A stretch of 64,000 nt of DNA from Clostridiaceae bacterium. Its GTDB lineage: Bacteria > Bacillota > Clostridia > DSM-8532. The stretch is taken from contig JAAYFU010000031.1 of the NCBI GenBank assembly GCA_012728095.1, forward strand, positions 20,821 through 84,820, read 5' to 3'. This document shows, piece after piece, positions 6,586 through 17,164 of this stretch. The stretch's first letter is position 1. Each line of letters opens with the position of its first letter. The notes below the pieces were generated by a model that was not told the DNA's origin, ran no database searches, and saw only the letters and a program-made list of their open reading frames with translations. Both the position numbers and the translations under genes were made by a program.

Positions 6586-7587
6586 TTACGGACGGCAGTT
6601 GGGACAGGGAAAATATCCTTCGGCGGCTGTTTCGTACGCGTTGGAAAAATAAGCTATACTGTCCCGGTTGAATCCGGGATCCGAAACAACGGTGTTTTGT
6701 AGAAATTCACAATCACTTCTGCAATAATATAAGATCCCCTGGTAAGTATAGCCGGTTAAAGGGGCTCTTCTTATGACTCTTGCTCCCCCGAGGGCATAAT
6801 GCTTATAGTTCTTGCCGGTAAGGACAGGAAAGCCCTGGGCATAAACTATGATACCCTCGTCGGTAAGAGCTCTTTTCCAGTCCGCATCATCTATTGACGG
6901 AAATTCCAGTTTAACCGAGAAGCTTTTCCCCAATGTCCATTGGTTATAATAATCCATATATGCCATGATTTTTTCTTCAACAGAGTTTTTAACTGCCGCT
7001 AAGCGTAGATTCTCAAAGGTCTGTTTATCTTTAAAGTAAGAGATTTCTTCTTCAAATTCGCTGTAATCGCCTTCTCTAAGGGTCTGGTCAGCAATATCAA
7101 AAATATAGATTTTATTCTCAAGAGTATAACGAATGATAAATCTGTCGGATAAAACTTCTCCGATATAGTGCTGCATGGGGAACCATACATGTTTAATCTC
7201 GTTTTGCCCGTTTATGTTTTTATATTCATCGAGGGCATATAATGTAAACCCTTCACTTTCAAGAAAAACCAGGACCGGTATGCAGGCATCCACCCTCGCC
7301 ATTAATGACTGATTGCCCTTCGCGTTAAAGGAATGGTATACAGTGTCAAAAAAAACTTCAGCGGCAAGCTGCTTGGCTTCTGTAAATCTTACGTTACCTG
7401 CATATGTAAGCCCCGTTCCTTTGTTTGACAGGATGAATGCGGCATCGACGGCTGCATTGTCGATTATATTGTCATAGTAATATCTTAATTTATTATCCTG
7501 TATCGCCGTTTCAGTTTCCTGGGCACTTATGAAAATGAAGGGAGAAATGATAATTACAAACATGATTGCGAAACTAGTAAGCTTCAT
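6586..7587 (-). CDS. Secreted protein at the end of the Tad-like operon
   Basis: N-terminal signal-like MKLTSFAIMFVIIISPFIFISAQE; C-terminus ends CPNCRP. Confidence 0.65.
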   Translation of the reverse strand: MKLTSFAIMFVIIISPFIFISAQETETAIQDNKLRYYYDNIIDNAAVDAAFILSNKGTGLTYAGNVRFTEAKQLAAEVFFDTVYHSFNAKGNQSLMARVDACIPVLVFLESEGFTLYALDEYKNINGQNEIKHVWFPMQHYIGEVLSDRFIIRYTLENKIYIFDIADQTLREGDYSEFEEEISYFKDKQTFENLRLAAVKNSVEEKIMAYMDYYNQWTLGKSFSVKLEFPSIDDADWKRALTDEGIIVYAQGFPVLTGKNYKHYALGGARVIRRAPLTGYTYQGILYYCRSDCEFLQNTVVSDPGFNRDSIAYFSNAYETAAEGYFPCPNCRP

Positions 7588-8128
7588 TTCTAACCATTCC
7601 TCCCGCGCGAACAAATATGGCAGGGTAATCAGTATTCCTGAACAGTATCATGTCCCGAACCGCTGTTGCCATTGTTTTACCCTTGTTTTGTACTTCGACA
7701 AAAAAAAGATCTCCCATACTCATATCATAGCGCCGGGATTTATCATGTGCCGGCAGCGTCGGATTATCCGGGTACAGGACACCCAAAATGTCATTTTCAC
7801 CATATTTTATATGGGTTATCTCATATTCGCCGGTGAAGCTTAAATTGCCGTTAATCTGTTTATATATCGGATTAACCGACCTTTTTATATGTGAAAGTCT
7901 GATTGTATAAGTGTTTCCCGTTGAGTTGACACGATTTGTGAATTCCATGTACATATCGGGTGTTATATACCCTGTGTCCCTGCAGGCATCAACGAACCTG
8001 TTACATTCTGCCAGAACGACATTGTAGGCGATATCATCCTGCCTGTCCAGGACAGTCATCAACGGAAAAAGAAACATTAATACAGCGCATAATAAAAACG
8101 CTAACACATTCCAGAAAGCTCTGTCCAT
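7574..8128 (-). CDS. Tad-like pseudopilin/minor component with N-terminal TM
   Basis: MDRAFWNVLAFLLCAVLMFLFPLMTVLDRQDDIAYNVVLAECNRFVDACRDTGYITPDMYMEF; one TM near the N-terminus, in the Tad operon. Confidence 0.6.
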   Translation of the reverse strand: MDRAFWNVLAFLLCAVLMFLFPLMTVLDRQDDIAYNVVLAECNRFVDACRDTGYITPDMYMEFTNRVNSTGNTYTIRLSHIKRSVNPIYKQINGNLSFTGEYEITHIKYGENDILGVLYPDNPTLPAHDKSRRYDMSMGDLFFVEVQNKGKTMATAVRDMILFRNTDYPAIFVRAGGMVRNEAY

Positions 8129-11203: not shown

Positions 11204-13074
11204 ACTCTCACCCCGCTTTCCAGGTTGAAATGCAAGTTTAGGAAATCGTCGAATTGCCGTGCATCTTCGGCTGTCATGGCGCGTTTCATCCTCTCTGTCC
11301 TTTCTTTTGAAACAGGGTTGACCACAACATACCGGCCATTTCTGAATTCAATAATATTGCGGCACTCAAATATCCTTTTATCGGTCATCTTCTTATAATA
11401 CTCAGCGGTTGTTTCCATGAAAGAAGCTGTTTTATCAGTTATATTCTTTTCATAAACAAAATTGTCAGGCAGTGGCGTATCCTTTAGTTCAACTATTTCT
11501 GTGATTCGTTCAATATATCTTTTGCCTTCGTAATCTCTTGCAAGATGTATGTCAAAATCAAGGACCGAAACCACCTGCTGTTCGGCTATTTTTTCATTTG
11601 TGAACATTTCGCATTTCAATAATGAATTCCGGAGAGAATAAACCAGATCCCGCGTAGTTTTTGCATGATGGGTAAAAAGAGTAAACAGCGAAGCCACCTG
11701 GGCCATCTGTATCATCCATGCCGCTACCGGATCGGTTGCCACTTCTCCCAGTATGTTCACGCTGCCGTCTGTCTTTTTCTGAATATCAAGTCCCATTTGC
11801 CCCGAAATAGTTTCAGTCTCTCTGAAGGACAGGATATTTCTTCTAGGGTATAAACGTCTTAGATTCAGTTCAAAAGCCATTTCCTGGATACGAAGTGTTA
11901 AGGTGGCATAAATATGTTCAATCATGGCCATAAGCATTGTGGTTTTCCCGCTTCCCTGCTGCCCGGTCACGGCTGTTATCATCCCGCCCTTTACTATGTA
12001 TTTGATCAGGTTTATGGGCAAATTGGCATTCTCATCCTGAATAAGCATTTCCAACGTTACATTTTTAATGTAAAATTTGCGGACAAAAAAAGCCCAGGAT
12101 TCAGAAAACGGCGGCCGTACCACAAGGACACGGCTTCCGTCCTTCATCTCGTTTACCCTGTAGCCTGTAGCCTCTGAAAGCTGGCCTCCCCGATTGTAAC
12201 GGTATATTATCTGGCATACCCTTTTTAGCTCGCTTTCACTTTCAAAGCTTAAAAAATCAAGTTTTATGGATTTGCCTTTATAGAAAATCCATACGCTTTC
12301 ATAGTTTTTCTGGTAACTTGCGGCAATATCCATTTGCTGCCGGAAGTTCGAAAAATCAAAATGGTCCGTGGTTACCCCGGAAACTCCGGCAGATACGCCG
12401 TCAATATTCATATCCCTGATTTCATCTATGACGCCTAACCCTTTATATTGTTCATACACCGCCTGGGTGATAACCTCGAGTTTGTCTTCCTTCGTGAGGA
12501 TAAAACCCATCCTGTCATAAATATGCTCAATCTCCTGCCTGGATATAAAATAACAATATTCTCCATCCTCGTTCTTTTTCAGTTTATCCAGCTCAAACTC
12601 ATCAATTATATACGAAAGCGCATCGGCTCCATGTTTCTTCTTCATCATGTGAAGTAGAATTGCAAACTTATGCTTTGTTGACAGAAGGTATGGATTATTG
12701 AAAGGAATGATTAAATTGAGCTTTTCATCAGGGATATAGGCATGAAGAATATCATAAATTAAAGCCTTGACAAACTGTTTATCCACAATGGAGCCGTGCA
12801 TACATACCTTGAGCGCTTTTTTAAGTTCCGCCCTTTTATTGGCTTGCTTTTTAAACTCCACCTCGTTGAGGCCAAGCTCAAATAAATTAGTTCTTGTTAT
12901 CTCGTTAATGCAATCCCTGACATATTCGATAAGTCCCGGAATTGTGTACTTCTGGGGATCTTCATTTTCGCCTGTCTCCATATGGTACTTTCTTGATACA
13001 AAGAAAAAGTACAGGGATATACCCAGGCCAAGCAGTATTAAAATGAGCATTACCAGGTTTATGGCAAACGGCAA
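11200..13074 (-). CDS. TadA/CpaF-like secretion ATPase with N-terminal TM
   Basis: Walker A TGQQGSGKTTMLMAMIEHI, followed by NILGEVATDPVAAWMIQMAQVASLFTLFTHHAKTTRDLVYSLRNSLL typical of the GspE/TadA family. Confidence 0.85.
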   Translation of the reverse strand: MPFAINLVMLILILLGLGISLYFFFVSRKYHMETGENEDPQKYTIPGLIEYVRDCINEITRTNLFELGLNEVEFKKQANKRAELKKALKVCMHGSIVDKQFVKALIYDILHAYIPDEKLNLIIPFNNPYLLSTKHKFAILLHMMKKKHGADALSYIIDEFELDKLKKNEDGEYCYFISRQEIEHIYDRMGFILTKEDKLEVITQAVYEQYKGLGVIDEIRDMNIDGVSAGVSGVTTDHFDFSNFRQQMDIAASYQKNYESVWIFYKGKSIKLDFLSFESESELKRVCQIIYRYNRGGQLSEATGYRVNEMKDGSRVLVVRPPFSESWAFFVRKFYIKNVTLEMLIQDENANLPINLIKYIVKGGMITAVTGQQGSGKTTMLMAMIEHIYATLTLRIQEMAFELNLRRLYPRRNILSFRETETISGQMGLDIQKKTDGSVNILGEVATDPVAAWMIQMAQVASLFTLFTHHAKTTRDLVYSLRNSLLKCEMFTNEKIAEQQVVSVLDFDIHLARDYEGKRYIERITEIVELKDTPLPDNFVYEKNITDKTASFMETTAEYYKKMTDKRIFECRNIIEFRNGRYVVVNPVSKERTERMKRAMTAEDARQFDDFLNLHFNLESGVRV

Positions 13075-13874
13075 CTTTTATCGCACCCCTCAACAATGTA
13101 CTCACAGAGCCGGTTCAAAGCGCTGAATATCTCTTTTTCTTCGCCGCGTTTTGTATTTCGGTTAAATGCGACATATTCATATACTCTTCCGGTGTTCAAA
13201 GCATCCAATAAATGTGAACTATTGGGAATTTCAAAAACGTAATTTCTCTTTATTCCAAATTTTCTTGCAAGGTTGGCTCCCGTTATGCCACTGTTCTTTT
13301 CATATCGCGCCAAAACAAATGCAGCCTGTTTTTGCCCTAAAAACTCATACTCATTAAAAAGGGCGGCCAGGTCATCCAGTAATAAACTGTTCTGATTTAC
13401 ACAAAACACTATTATGTCCGAATTTTTAAGAAGACTTAAACTGTTGTTTACTTTAATACCGCTGTGAACATCCAGTATTATAAGGTCATAAAACTCTTTC
13501 GCCAGGCCGAGTACGCTTAAGAAAAGCTCCTGGTCTTCCTGCGGCATTATTTGCTTTTTCTCGGATCCCAAAAGCAAGTCCATCCTGTGATTTTTCAGGA
13601 CCGAATATGTATAATCCGCAATCATTTCCGGCTTAAGTCTTCCGTTTTTCACGAGTCTTAACAGCGCATCGATTCCCTGGTTATTCAGTCTTCCGAAACT
13701 GTTACTCTGTTTTGGCTTTTTAAACAAATAACCTTCTATAGCGTTTTTTTCTGTTTGGTTATGAGCAATCAACGTTTTTAAAGCCGTATTCTGTGCTATG
13801 AATGAGGCCACTGCTGCCGTGGTAGTGCTTGTCGCTCCCTGTCCGTGCATGTTTGACCAGAAGGAAACCTGCAT
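13059..13874 (-). CDS. CpaE/MinD-like protein with non-canonical P-loop
   Basis: MQVSFWSNMHGQGATSTTTAAVASFIAQNT at the P-loop position; DLIILDVHSGIKVNNSLSLLKNSDIIVFCVNQN matches MinD-type downstream motifs. Confidence 0.75.
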   Translation of the reverse strand: MQVSFWSNMHGQGATSTTTAAVASFIAQNTALKTLIAHNQTEKNAIEGYLFKKPKQSNSFGRLNNQGIDALLRLVKNGRLKPEMIADYTYSVLKNHRMDLLLGSEKKQIMPQEDQELFLSVLGLAKEFYDLIILDVHSGIKVNNSLSLLKNSDIIVFCVNQNSLLLDDLAALFNEYEFLGQKQAAFVLARYEKNSGITGANLARKFGIKRNYVFEIPNSSHLLDALNTGRVYEYVAFNRNTKRGEEKEIFSALNRLCEYIVEGCDKSCRLP

Positions 13875-13875
13875 C

Positions 13876-14523
13876 CTATTTCATCCTTTCAGCTCTTCTT
13901 AACACTTCTTTTGCCGCTTTTGAATCCAAAGAAAAAATATATTGGATTGTTTTTCTGAGGGAATTTTTGATAGGCAAAGACAGATTCCTTACAACTAATT
14001 TGTTTGAATACTGACTTTCAATCATCACAATACGGTTTTTTTCCTCAAAGTATATTTCATCGGTTCCGGCAATCCTGGTGAAGCTTGGTAAACTATGCTC
14101 CCAGTAGCTGTTTAAAAAATGACTTCCTATTTTGCAGTACTCCATAATATTAAGATAGATAATATAGATATTTAATGACGGGTGCGCCCAGGTGTATTCT
14201 TCGGCTAATTTTATACAGCTTTCAAGCTTGCCCCTGGTTGTTTCGCTAATTGCTATTACCTTAAAATCCTCCGGAATATCCATATATTCTTCCGCATCAA
14301 TAAAATTGCCGTTATTTTCCGAAATCTTTGACAAAGGGTTTTCCCCGTCTTTAAGCAGCACAAAATCAATCCCGCAATATTCATAACTATCGGCGACTTC
14401 ATCAAATGAATATGCCTTTTTTGACAATACGGTTATTTTTGCGTGGCATGACACTATTTTAGCAAGGCATAGTATTAAAAAACGCTTTTCCTCGGTACTC
14501 TCTCCCAGAAACACTACATTCAT
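13876..14523 (-). CDS. Unknown protein, possibly degenerate MinD-like
   Basis: MNVVFLGESTEEKRFLILCLAKIVSCHAKITVLSKKAYSFDE has P-loop NTPase-like strand/helix spacing without a Walker A. Between cpaB-like and cpaE-like genes. Confidence 0.5.
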   Translation of the reverse strand: MNVVFLGESTEEKRFLILCLAKIVSCHAKITVLSKKAYSFDEVADSYEYCGIDFVLLKDGENPLSKISENNGNFIDAEEYMDIPEDFKVIAISETTRGKLESCIKLAEEYTWAHPSLNIYIIYLNIMEYCKIGSHFLNSYWEHSLPSFTRIAGTDEIYFEEKNRIVMIESQYSNKLVVRNLSLPIKNSLRKTIQYIFSLDSKAAKEVLRRAERMK

Positions 14524-14534
14524 ATGAAGCCCTC

Positions 14535-15488
14535 CTAAAGATTATCTTCCACACTCGTTTCGGTTCCCGATTCAAAGGTTTTGCTTTCGGGAATATCATG
14601 GAGAATTTGAACATTATTATCATTGAACACTTTGTTTCTCCCTGAATACTGGTGATCCTCATTTATTCTTTCCTCAAACAGCCGGCGGTTACGGGTCTCC
14701 AGCTCTGTAACGGCTTTATTGATAATATTGGGATTTTCCAGGATCAATTTTTGAACGTCTAAATTCACCGGATAAGTTATAGCCGCCTGATCCTGGATAT
14801 CCGGAGCTATATATGGCACGGCATATAGTATTGTTCCTTCCACGATACTTGCGTCGACAATGGCGCTGGCCATTCTCAGTATCTCTTCTTCGCCGGCATG
14901 AAACCATATTATGTTTCTTTGAGCATTTTCCGATCTTTCCAAATCGGTAACCTGCTTCTTGGAAAGGACAATATAATCCAGCCCGTTTGGAAACATGATC
15001 CTGATGTCTATGAATTCATTTTTCTGAAGTTTTTGCGGAAGGTTTAAAACCGAGTATTCCATTAGTCTCATATCATGGGGATAATCCTGTTTTCCATATA
15101 AAAGTGATTCGGTTATTACCGTATTGGACAGGATATCGCATCTTATCACCTTTCCGACAGCCAGAGAAGGATCGGTTACTGCATCTGCCGGTTTAAGACT
15201 TTCGCTTATCTCAGCCGGAGCAATGTCTTTATCCTGTAAAATATCTCCTGATTTTTTATCTGTCGTGATTTTATATACCAGACTTGTAGGATTATTCTGC
15301 CTGTATTCTTCCAATGCCAATTGCCTGATTTGCAGCTTTTCCTGTTCGGTCAACCGATATGTATTATTACGGTAATATAAATAGCCTGCTGCCAAAACTG
15401 CCAATGAAAGAGAAAGGCCTGCAATAAAACCCAGTAGAATCCTGTAACGCTGTGGCCTTGAAATCACCTTTTTACCTCCTTGTCTCAT
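14535..15488 (-). CDS. CpaB/SAF-domain-like membrane-anchored protein
   Basis: N-terminal TM (ILLGFIAGLSLSLAVLAAGYLYY); SAF-like DILQDKDIAPAEISESLKPADAVTDPSLAVGKVIRCDILSNTVITESLL. ATGA overlap with the kinase stop. Confidence 0.75.
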   Translation of the reverse strand: MRQGGKKVISRPQRYRILLGFIAGLSLSLAVLAAGYLYYRNNTYRLTEQEKLQIRQLALEEYRQNNPTSLVYKITTDKKSGDILQDKDIAPAEISESLKPADAVTDPSLAVGKVIRCDILSNTVITESLLYGKQDYPHDMRLMEYSVLNLPQKLQKNEFIDIRIMFPNGLDYIVLSKKQVTDLERSENAQRNIIWFHAGEEEILRMASAIVDASIVEGTILYAVPYIAPDIQDQAAITYPVNLDVQKLILENPNIINKAVTELETRNRRLFEERINEDHQYSGRNKVFNDNNVQILHDIPESKTFESGTETSVEDNL

Positions 15489-16903
15489 AATTGCCCTGCT
15501 AATTTGCATATTTCATTAAGCACAACCCCTATACGCTTATGATCTTCCGTATTCAGATAAAAAGGATTACTGACGGTTGAATAAAGGACCAGCCTGTTGG
15601 AGCCCAGAAGTTTTTTTAATTTTTGATGTTCATAACTTTGAGAAATATTTGCCGTATAAATCCATTCTTCTTTTGCAAGCGATTCAATTTTTTGGTGGCA
15701 TTCCGAAAAAAGGCTATACTTCCAGGGTACATTCGGACATACTATAATCCTGATATCAGCATGATTAAACTGGATCATTTTTCTTTCGGTATTCAATTGT
15801 CCGAGATCAAGGATTATCGCATCGATGCCTTTTCTGGATACCACTCCGAAATCTGGCGCATTGGGATAGAAAACCAGGTTATTCGCTTCGAACCGGTTTT
15901 CGCTTTGGAGCTTTACCTCTCCCAGCTCATCCAGATACTCTCTCATTCTGTCAAAATCCCCGCTGGAATTGAGTTCAACCAATACAGAACTGACTTTGTT
16001 ACTTGATAAGTATTTTCCTATGGCAAGGCACAGAGACGTTACACCGCTGGCAGGAAGCAAAGAGGCAATTGCTATTACTCCCTTAAAGCTTTTTTCTGCT
16101 TTTCTATTGTAAAAAAACAATCTTTCGGGAATTATCATCCTGCCAAGTTCTTCAATTGCTTCTTCGCAGTTCTGAAACCTTTTGCCGGGATCGGTTTGTG
16201 CAAGTTTCAGGATAAAATGAATATATCTTTGTGCAATACCCGCTTTCTTTAGTACGTCTTTCAATTTCTCAGACCCCTGTTTTACAGGATGGATTCCCGT
16301 AGCAAGATGGAAAATGGTCATCCCCAGACTGTACAAGTCTGTTCTCTGGTCAGTCTGTCCGACTCCATACTGCTCAGGGGCCGCGTAACCTTGGGTTCCT
16401 ATGTAGACTGTATCTTCTGTCTTTTCTTTGGTGTAATACCTGGCGGCTCCAAAGTCAACAAGCCTTAGTTGGCCTATGTCATCCACTATCAGATTTGCAG
16501 GTTTTAAATCTCCGTATATTATGGGAGGATTCCTGCTGTGAAGATATTTTAATACATCCAGCAGATCTCTCGTCCATTTAAGAAGCGTTTTTTCAGGTAT
16601 TTTCCCCTGGTATTCCAAAACCTTAAGTAAATTTGAGCCGGGAATGTAGTCCATTACTATGTAGTAATTATCCTCATCCTCTGTTAAATCGGCTATCCTG
16701 GGCAGCATAGGATGACTGAGATTTTTCAGTATATCTATTTCCTCCATATCAACCGAAAGGCGGGGGCTGTTTTTATACAAAACCTTAATAGCCCAGAAAT
16801 TGTTCAATACTATGTTTTCTGCCAAATATACAGCCGAAGTGCCCCCTTCGCCAAGAAAGTCAATTATTCTGTATTTGTCGGCTATTATTCTATCTTTCAT
16901 CAT
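15485..16903 (-). CDS. Ser/Thr protein kinase fused to a degenerate MinD-like domain
   Basis: Hanks motifs: GEGGTSAVY, WAIKVLY, YGDLKPANLIVDD, LVDFGAAR, GTQGYAAPEQYG. C-terminus: GVIAIASLLPASGVTSLCLAIGKYLSSNKVSSVLVELN...IDAIILDLGQL. Confidence 0.93.
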   Translation of the reverse strand: MMKDRIIADKYRIIDFLGEGGTSAVYLAENIVLNNFWAIKVLYKNSPRLSVDMEEIDILKNLSHPMLPRIADLTEDEDNYYIVMDYIPGSNLLKVLEYQGKIPEKTLLKWTRDLLDVLKYLHSRNPPIIYGDLKPANLIVDDIGQLRLVDFGAARYYTKEKTEDTVYIGTQGYAAPEQYGVGQTDQRTDLYSLGMTIFHLATGIHPVKQGSEKLKDVLKKAGIAQRYIHFILKLAQTDPGKRFQNCEEAIEELGRMIIPERLFFYNRKAEKSFKGVIAIASLLPASGVTSLCLAIGKYLSSNKVSSVLVELNSSGDFDRMREYLDELGEVKLQSENRFEANNLVFYPNAPDFGVVSRKGIDAIILDLGQLNTERKMIQFNHADIRIIVCPNVPWKYSLFSECHQKIESLAKEEWIYTANISQSYEHQKLKKLLGSNRLVLYSTVSNPFYLNTEDHKRIGVVLNEICKLAGQL

Positions 16904-16952: not shown

Positions 16953-17131
16953 TTTTAACCGATACATCCGGATAATAAGCCTGACCCGTTACAGATGGGG
17001 AAATTTATATTATCGTTATAAAGCTGCACTTTAATTACCGATGACTGTTAATTATTGTAACATTTTGTTGAATTTAATACAATAGTAAAATTTTATACTG
17101 AATAATATTTTTATTTTGTCAGAAAAACAAA

Positions 17132-17164
17132 ATCAGCCGAAAGACTTTATTCATTCGGCTGATT
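17132..17164 (-). terminator. Intrinsic terminator downstream of hisE
   Basis: Minus strand AATCAGCCGAA...TTCGGCTGATTTTGTTTTTC. Confidence 0.8.

Follow-up and report, generated by a model that had tools for sequence, protein, structure and literature searches.

The window, a stretch of 64,000 nucleotides from a Clostridiaceae genome, encodes a protein, here called KinZ, in which a Hanks-type Ser/Thr kinase is fused to a MinD/TadZ-like domain without the Walker A lysine. By its gene content, the locus headed by KinZ is a Tad-like pilus operon, and the arrangement is conserved across Bacillota; an earlier note on this DNA had missed both points. We give a probability of roughly 0.5 to the reading that KinZ acts as a TadZ/CpaE-like hub in a divergent pilus machine of Tad type. 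In this hub, an active kinase would replace the usual N-terminal atypical receiver domain and gate assembly or siting of the pilus by phosphorylation.

The KinZ frame is open throughout on the minus strand, from an ATG at 16903 to a stop at 15485, and the ATG is preceded by AGGTGAGG (16919-16912), which we read as a ribosome-binding site. A strong intrinsic terminator separates KinZ from the upstream gene, named hisE by eye from its sequence. Therefore, KinZ is the first gene of the operon and very likely heads its own transcription unit. The strings quoted for this gene in the earlier note (WAIK, DLKPxN, DFG, GVIAIASLLPASGVTSLCLAIG and IDAIILDLGQL) were all found in 15485-16903, with DLKPAN as the form of DLKPxN, and APE is also present. 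The window protein and 26 relatives, with 76 to 29% identity to it, make up a set of 27 family proteins that can be aligned over the whole length of the fused ORF. This conservation in 26 relatives excludes chance or a frameshift artefact as the source of the fusion. The dN/dS ratio against the nearest relative was about 0.12 for the kinase and about 0.20 for the C-terminal domain; both halves are under purifying selection.

The Pfam Pkinase model matched KinZ residues 11-243 (E = 1.8e-45), and the best Foldseek matches of the full-length model were S. aureus Stk1 and PknB. The glycine-rich loop, K40, E55, D132, K134, N137, D150-G152 and E177 are all present. All 27 family proteins share Lys40, Glu55, Asp132, Lys134, Asn137, Asp150, Gly152 and Glu177 without exception, and likewise D164-T165 and T170 of the activation segment. 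The intact VAIK-type lysine, DLKPxN loop and DFG motif pointed out earlier are thus borne out by the Pfam match and the alignment; with the alpha-C glutamate, the catalytic aspartate and APE, KinZ has the features of membership in the Hanks kinases. Since the full set of catalytic residues is kept, the kinase is probably active. The YGD reported in place of HRD is indeed present in the window protein, but it is not a trait of this kinase family, because all 26 relatives have YRD and the GGA codon at residue 131 is one base from AGA. Such a private single-base change excludes YGD as the mark of a pseudokinase family. The change might be a sequencing or assembly error; otherwise the window KinZ would be a non-RD kinase, and loss of the arginine may alter its regulation. 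An arginine before the catalytic aspartate is common, not universal, among Hanks-type kinases.

Full-length Foldseek searches were swamped by kinases, and the C-terminal domain was therefore modelled separately. AlphaFold gave a confident model of the domain alone (pLDDT 91.7, pTM 0.90). The best 50 PDB matches listed by Foldseek were all of the SIMIBI class, including BcsQ, ParA, FlhG, MinD, FleN, HypB and SRP54, in agreement with the MinD/CpaE-like fold proposed in the earlier note; no unrelated fold appeared among them. Normalised by query length, the TM-scores lay between 0.49 and 0.68, a moderate range of the kind to be expected of a divergent domain that is compact. As a single sequence, the domain had no match in Pfam and no useful match in the PDB. 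A profile of the 27 family sequences gave weak P-loop matches to SRP54, Soj and MinD, and a profile built from a wider set of 21 sequences, among them proteins of Paenibacillus and of other clostridia, matched Soj with E = 7e-6. In the wider-profile alignment, vIavaGtepgvGvThtAia lies over RIALANQKGGVGKTTTAIN of Soj, and the residue that faces the Walker A lysine is V; in the window protein this position is V288 (16040-16042). The lysine is missing in every one of the 27 family proteins (V in 19, A in 5, L in 2 and T in 1), is replaced in 21 of 21 sequences of the wide set and is also missing in four Paenibacillus proteins. The loss is therefore old and is not a quirk of the window genome, and the observation of a Walker A position without its lysine holds for the family as a whole. 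The strand IDAIILDLGQL, likened earlier to the MinD switch, has D366 and G368 invariant in the 27 family members.

Of the roles proposed earlier for the domain, that of a polar localiser is not established, and neither is that of a pseudo-ATPase, because a known TadZ is also lysine-less and is described as ATP-binding. The Eubacterium rectale TadZ structure 3fkq, the nearest functional analogue with a solved structure, reads GGVGTST in the alignment, with the Walker A lysine absent. A passage of PMC6668835 describes TadZ as an early hub whose atypical Walker A still binds ATP, with low ATPase activity, and a passage of PMC13170226 describes it as binding ATP for dimerisation. Therefore, the missing lysine in KinZ does not prove a loss of nucleotide binding. 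On this precedent, the MinD-like domain could still be a nucleotide switch that binds ATP without the lysine and controls the kinase by its state or dimerisation, and would then be an input domain and no pseudo-ATPase. The loop residues G19 and T21 and the switch D98 (numbering of alignments A2 and A5) are invariant, as expected if the phosphate-binding loop and the Mg ligand were kept. However, V, A, L or T stands in place of the Walker A lysine, and in the branch of the window protein the signature lysine is absent as well; we regard such a switch as somewhat unlikely.

Downstream of KinZ, the ten-gene operon encodes, in order, CpaB, a degenerate MinD-like protein (Deg215), a TadZ-like protein, TadA, a TadB/C-like protein and four pilin-like proteins (Table 1). 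The nine genes after KinZ run to 6586 with small overlaps or gaps of at most about 40 bases; the CpaB-like gene shares 25 bases with the end of the KinZ gene, stop codon included. The earlier note had rightly placed KinZ in an operon with another MinD-like protein, but there are two such further genes, not one. Several family models matched under their cut-offs: CpaB model TIGR03177 with the CpaB-like protein (E = 0.0017), PF13614 with the 271-aa TadZ-like protein (E = 0.00095) and TIGR03819 with the TadA-like protein (E = 2.2e-9). From its match to the PDB structure of CpaF, TadA of this operon is judged to be homologous to CpaF. The 677-aa TadB/C-like protein had no meaningful match in Pfam or NCBIfam and is conserved in position. 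The pilin-like proteins are named from their position, length and hydrophobic segments, no family model having matched them meaningfully.

Table 1 Features of the KinZ operon and of the KinZ protein (positions in the window).
Feature	Position	Strand	Evidence or remark
Intrinsic terminator between hisE and KinZ	17123..17164	minus	Fold -17.1 kcal/mol, z = -5.45, then T-rich tail
KinZ, Hanks-type Ser/Thr kinase + lysine-less MinD/TadZ-like domain, 472 aa	15485..16903	minus	
Kinase domain, residues 1-260	16124..16903	minus	Pfam PF00069, family alignment, Foldseek
Residue 131, G where HRD/YRD has arginine	16511..16513	minus	GGA vs AGR; private to window genome
Linker joining the KinZ domains, residues 259-271, flexible	16091..16129	minus	pLDDT <50
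MinD/ParA-like C-terminal domain, residues 272-472	15488..16090	minus	AlphaFold, Foldseek, profile match to Soj
Degenerate deviant Walker A, LPASGVT, residues 283-289	16037..16057	minus	Family alignment and profile alignment to Soj
Switch-like strand IDAIILDLGQL	15794..15826	minus	D366, G368 invariant in 27 family members
CpaB/RcpC-like protein, SAF domain, 324 aa	14535..15509	minus	PF08666 E = 3.2e-6; conserved beside KinZ
Deg215, small degenerate MinD-like protein	13876..14523	minus	Sequence alignment
TadZ-like MinD-family protein, 271 aa, without receiver domain	13059..13874	minus	HGQGATST, lysine replaced
TadA/CpaF-like motor ATPase, 624 aa	11200..13074	minus	Intact GQQGSGKTT and GEVA; PDB CpaF 8rkd E = 1.4e-12
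Fused TadB/TadC-like membrane platform (probable), 677 aa	9170..11203	minus	Position, length, hydrophobicity only
Pilin-like protein 1, 192 aa, N-terminal hydrophobic segment	8567..9145	minus	Position and sequence only
Pilin-like protein 2, 140 aa	8142..8564	minus	Position and sequence
Pilin-like protein 3, 184 aa	7574..8128	minus	Position and sequence
Pilin-like protein 4, up to 342 aa, last gene of the operon	6586..7614	minus	Position and sequence

Deg215 keeps a lysine at Walker A spacing (GxxxxxK) in seven aligned sequences, with GFCKS/T in other genera, and both of its MinD-like partners, the KinZ C-terminal domain and the 271-aa TadZ-like protein, have lost theirs. Deg215 is thus a possible lysine-bearing partner for the two. 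Relatives of the TadZ-like protein from another clostridial family, f58 (loci L233 and L234), read TGKT. As the window copy is lysine-less, the TadZ-like protein has probably lost its Walker A lysine more than once, judging from these sequences.

With 140 to 342 aa, the pilin-like proteins are large, and none of the products of the KinZ operon was recognised as a small Flp pilin. These features would suit a pseudopilus-type machine for secretion or DNA uptake, built from Tad parts without a surface pilus, in which KinZ gates secretion. They recall the divergent tad loci of clostridia for which Imam et al. (PMC3244431) describe a lack of recognisable signal peptides of prepilins. TadA and the CpaB-like and MinD-like parts, however, are typical of Tad loci. 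A prepilin peptidase gene is also present elsewhere in the window genome, on another contig, and adjoins the KinZ operon in one genome only, G347, from another clostridial family. We consider a pseudopilus unlikely and retain the reading of a Tad-type pilus machine.

The KinZ C-terminal domain was found in 29 of 32 family genomes, and in all 24 of good quality. The family includes Thermoclostridium caenicola, and the order of the KinZ operon is kept in Thermoclostridium relatives. The order KinZ-CpaB-Deg215-TadZ-TadA-TadBC-pilins is common to the family and four Paenibacillus, which belong to another class; the window KinZ matched that of P. amylolyticus at 33% over 457 aa (E = 1e-73). In G347, a kinase-MinD-like fusion heads a similar Tad-type operon. 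The small MinD-like neighbour there, positional counterpart of Deg215, has a canonical GTSGVGKT. In Herbivorax (locus L130), the MinD-like domain fused to a kinase is a different one, also lysine-less (GSGVTSS), and the fusion lies before a Tad operon of more usual make-up.

Kinase-free core operons, with CpaB as the first gene, occur in clostridial families f39, f48 and f58. No kinase was seen with the core operon of f64 either, an absence that is less sure as the contig ends near CpaB. The existence of the core operon without a kinase in other Clostridia indicates that the kinase fusion is an add-on. It also accords with KinZ being a general signalling kinase whose main targets lie outside the pilus, with the MinD-like domain a mere anchor to the membrane or pole and the operon a matter of co-expression. 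Basic or aromatic C-terminal tails (e.g. KKKSFFFKKRN), found in Paenibacillus and some family members, would suit membrane binding. The window's own branch, however, has no basic tail, which excludes a membrane-binding tail of this kind as a general feature of KinZ, and KinZ is kept first in the same operon across two classes. A general kinase is therefore quite improbable, and we favour a role of KinZ at the pilus machine.

In the kinase tree, which was poorly resolved, the starred branches require the KinZ label to change at least twice. The kinase of G347 clusters there with that of Herbivorax, which bears the different MinD-like domain (100/96). These two results suggest that repeated fusion or domain exchange is the likely origin. 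A single origin is disfavoured by the tree, poorly resolved as it is, with its two or more changes. A phage origin was rejected, since a scan of viral contigs gave no relative.

The KinZ C-terminal domain also forms the second half of two-part proteins that are TadZ-like, near genes that by eye are apparently of mobile elements. In genome G265 (L106 6094-8216), a kinase with the loop HLDLQPKN is fused to a lysine-less MinD-like domain (GAGATH). A second, free-standing domain copy (SVGVTH) follows the fusion, and there is no Tad operon in the vicinity. Another locus (L111 2091-6644) encodes a protein that combines a receiver-like part, a MinD-like domain of GVTH type and a hydrophobic C-terminus. 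Several small WXG-like proteins come before it, a hint that the KinZ C-terminal type of domain also serves type VII secretion loci. No description of such a kinase-MinD-like fusion was found in the PMC literature searched, which covered papers under CC licences; this is weak evidence of absence.

On contig C70, the window genome carries another Tad locus, of canonical appearance (L247 9754-11244 and L248 1-4462). Its two-domain TadZ matches 3fkq (E = 2.8e-20) and is also without the Walker A lysine, and the locus ends in a DUF6382-FHA protein. With the Pkinase model, two Ser/Thr kinases were found in the window genome, KinZ and one of 670 aa, which we read as PrkC from its size and PP2C neighbour. 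The genome also has one PP2C and one FHA protein, the latter being that of the C70 locus, outside the KinZ operon. Since there are only two Ser/Thr kinases, KinZ is one of two candidate writers for the FHA reader, and we put forward its role as writer as a hypothesis. DUF6382 occurs in 31 of the 32 genomes of the family, and in G347 a DUF6382-FHA gene adjoins the KinZ operon. Tad loci of Maledivibacter and Desulfosporosinus (L126 and L136) have neighbours of DUF6382-FHA, PP2C and Ser/Thr kinase type, confirmed by Pfam for L126; these gene sets point to a wider association of Tad pili with a phospho-signalling module.

The hub reading starts from the modelled fold, the residue losses, the kinase motifs, the operon and its conservation, and adds docking, substrates and gating as proposals. 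The lysine-less MinD-like domain would be a module for docking and dimerisation, and any nucleotide in it would be bound weakly or in a structural role. This domain and the two other MinD-like proteins encoded in the operon would jointly keep the kinase on the cytoplasmic side of the TadA motor. Caulobacter CpaE dimers have been modelled around the CpaF motor (PMC13170226), a precedent from which we infer, by analogy, that the KinZ C-terminal domain may dock at the motor and bring the kinase there. The kinase would then phosphorylate parts of the machine, with TadA, the TadZ-like protein, Deg215 and the cytoplasmic end of CpaB as candidates, or alternatively a phospho-reader, and this phosphorylation would gate pilus assembly or siting. 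The core operon presumably works without KinZ in several clostridial families, so KinZ would be no universal hub. More tentatively, with odds somewhat below even, these systems may represent a recurrent and previously unrecognised design of Bacillota, in which the TadZ hub was rebuilt more than once as a kinase joined to a lysine-less MinD-like domain, with varied partners and a DUF6382-FHA phospho-reader, and on-site Ser/Thr phosphorylation switches pilus assembly. A kinase in the hub would be a direct physical link from eukaryote-type Ser/Thr signalling to a pilus motor, in organisms in which little is known of Tad regulation. The kinase would moreover give the lysine-less MinD-like domain a built-in readout, which makes the function of such a domain tractable.

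KinZ resembles the TadZ hub in genetic context and predicted fold. Like TadZ/CpaE (3fkq), it has a MinD/ParA-like SIMIBI domain with a lysine-less Walker A and is encoded with CpaB, TadA and probable TadB/C (the latter by position only), but it has an N-terminal Ser/Thr kinase and no atypical receiver domain. The CpaE-type NCBIfam model TIGR03815 matched five of the 27 family members (best E = 0.00024), not including the window protein, and the C-terminal domain is so distant that 3fkq was not among the 60 best matches listed for its wide profile (A5), in contrast to the TadZ of the C70 locus. As the receiver domain is absent and the sequence match at family level failed, KinZ was not filed as TadZ. 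TadZ is already lysine-less; the new part is therefore the kinase fusion and not the loss of the lysine, and the novelty lies in this fusion and its conservation. With MinD, ParA, BcsQ and FlhG, the C-terminal domain has the fold and the P-loop position in common, whereas the window KinZ has lost both the Walker A and the signature lysine. With the Hanks-type kinases of Bacillota (PrkC, PknB and Stk1), KinZ shares a complete kinase fold and motifs; unlike them, its kinase is fused to a MinD-like domain, and the window copy is without the RD arginine. Pfam reported no PASTA match in KinZ. A parallel in gene company is offered by the T7SSc to T7SSf variants of type VII secretion (PMC11217815), in which a kinase, DUF6382-FHA and PP2C stand beside a secretion-type machine as they do at Tad loci, and for which a TadZ-like receiver domain has been reported in TsfV (PMC11217815). 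In those T7SS loci the kinase is a membrane protein, whereas in KinZ it is fused to a MinD-like domain within a Tad-type operon.
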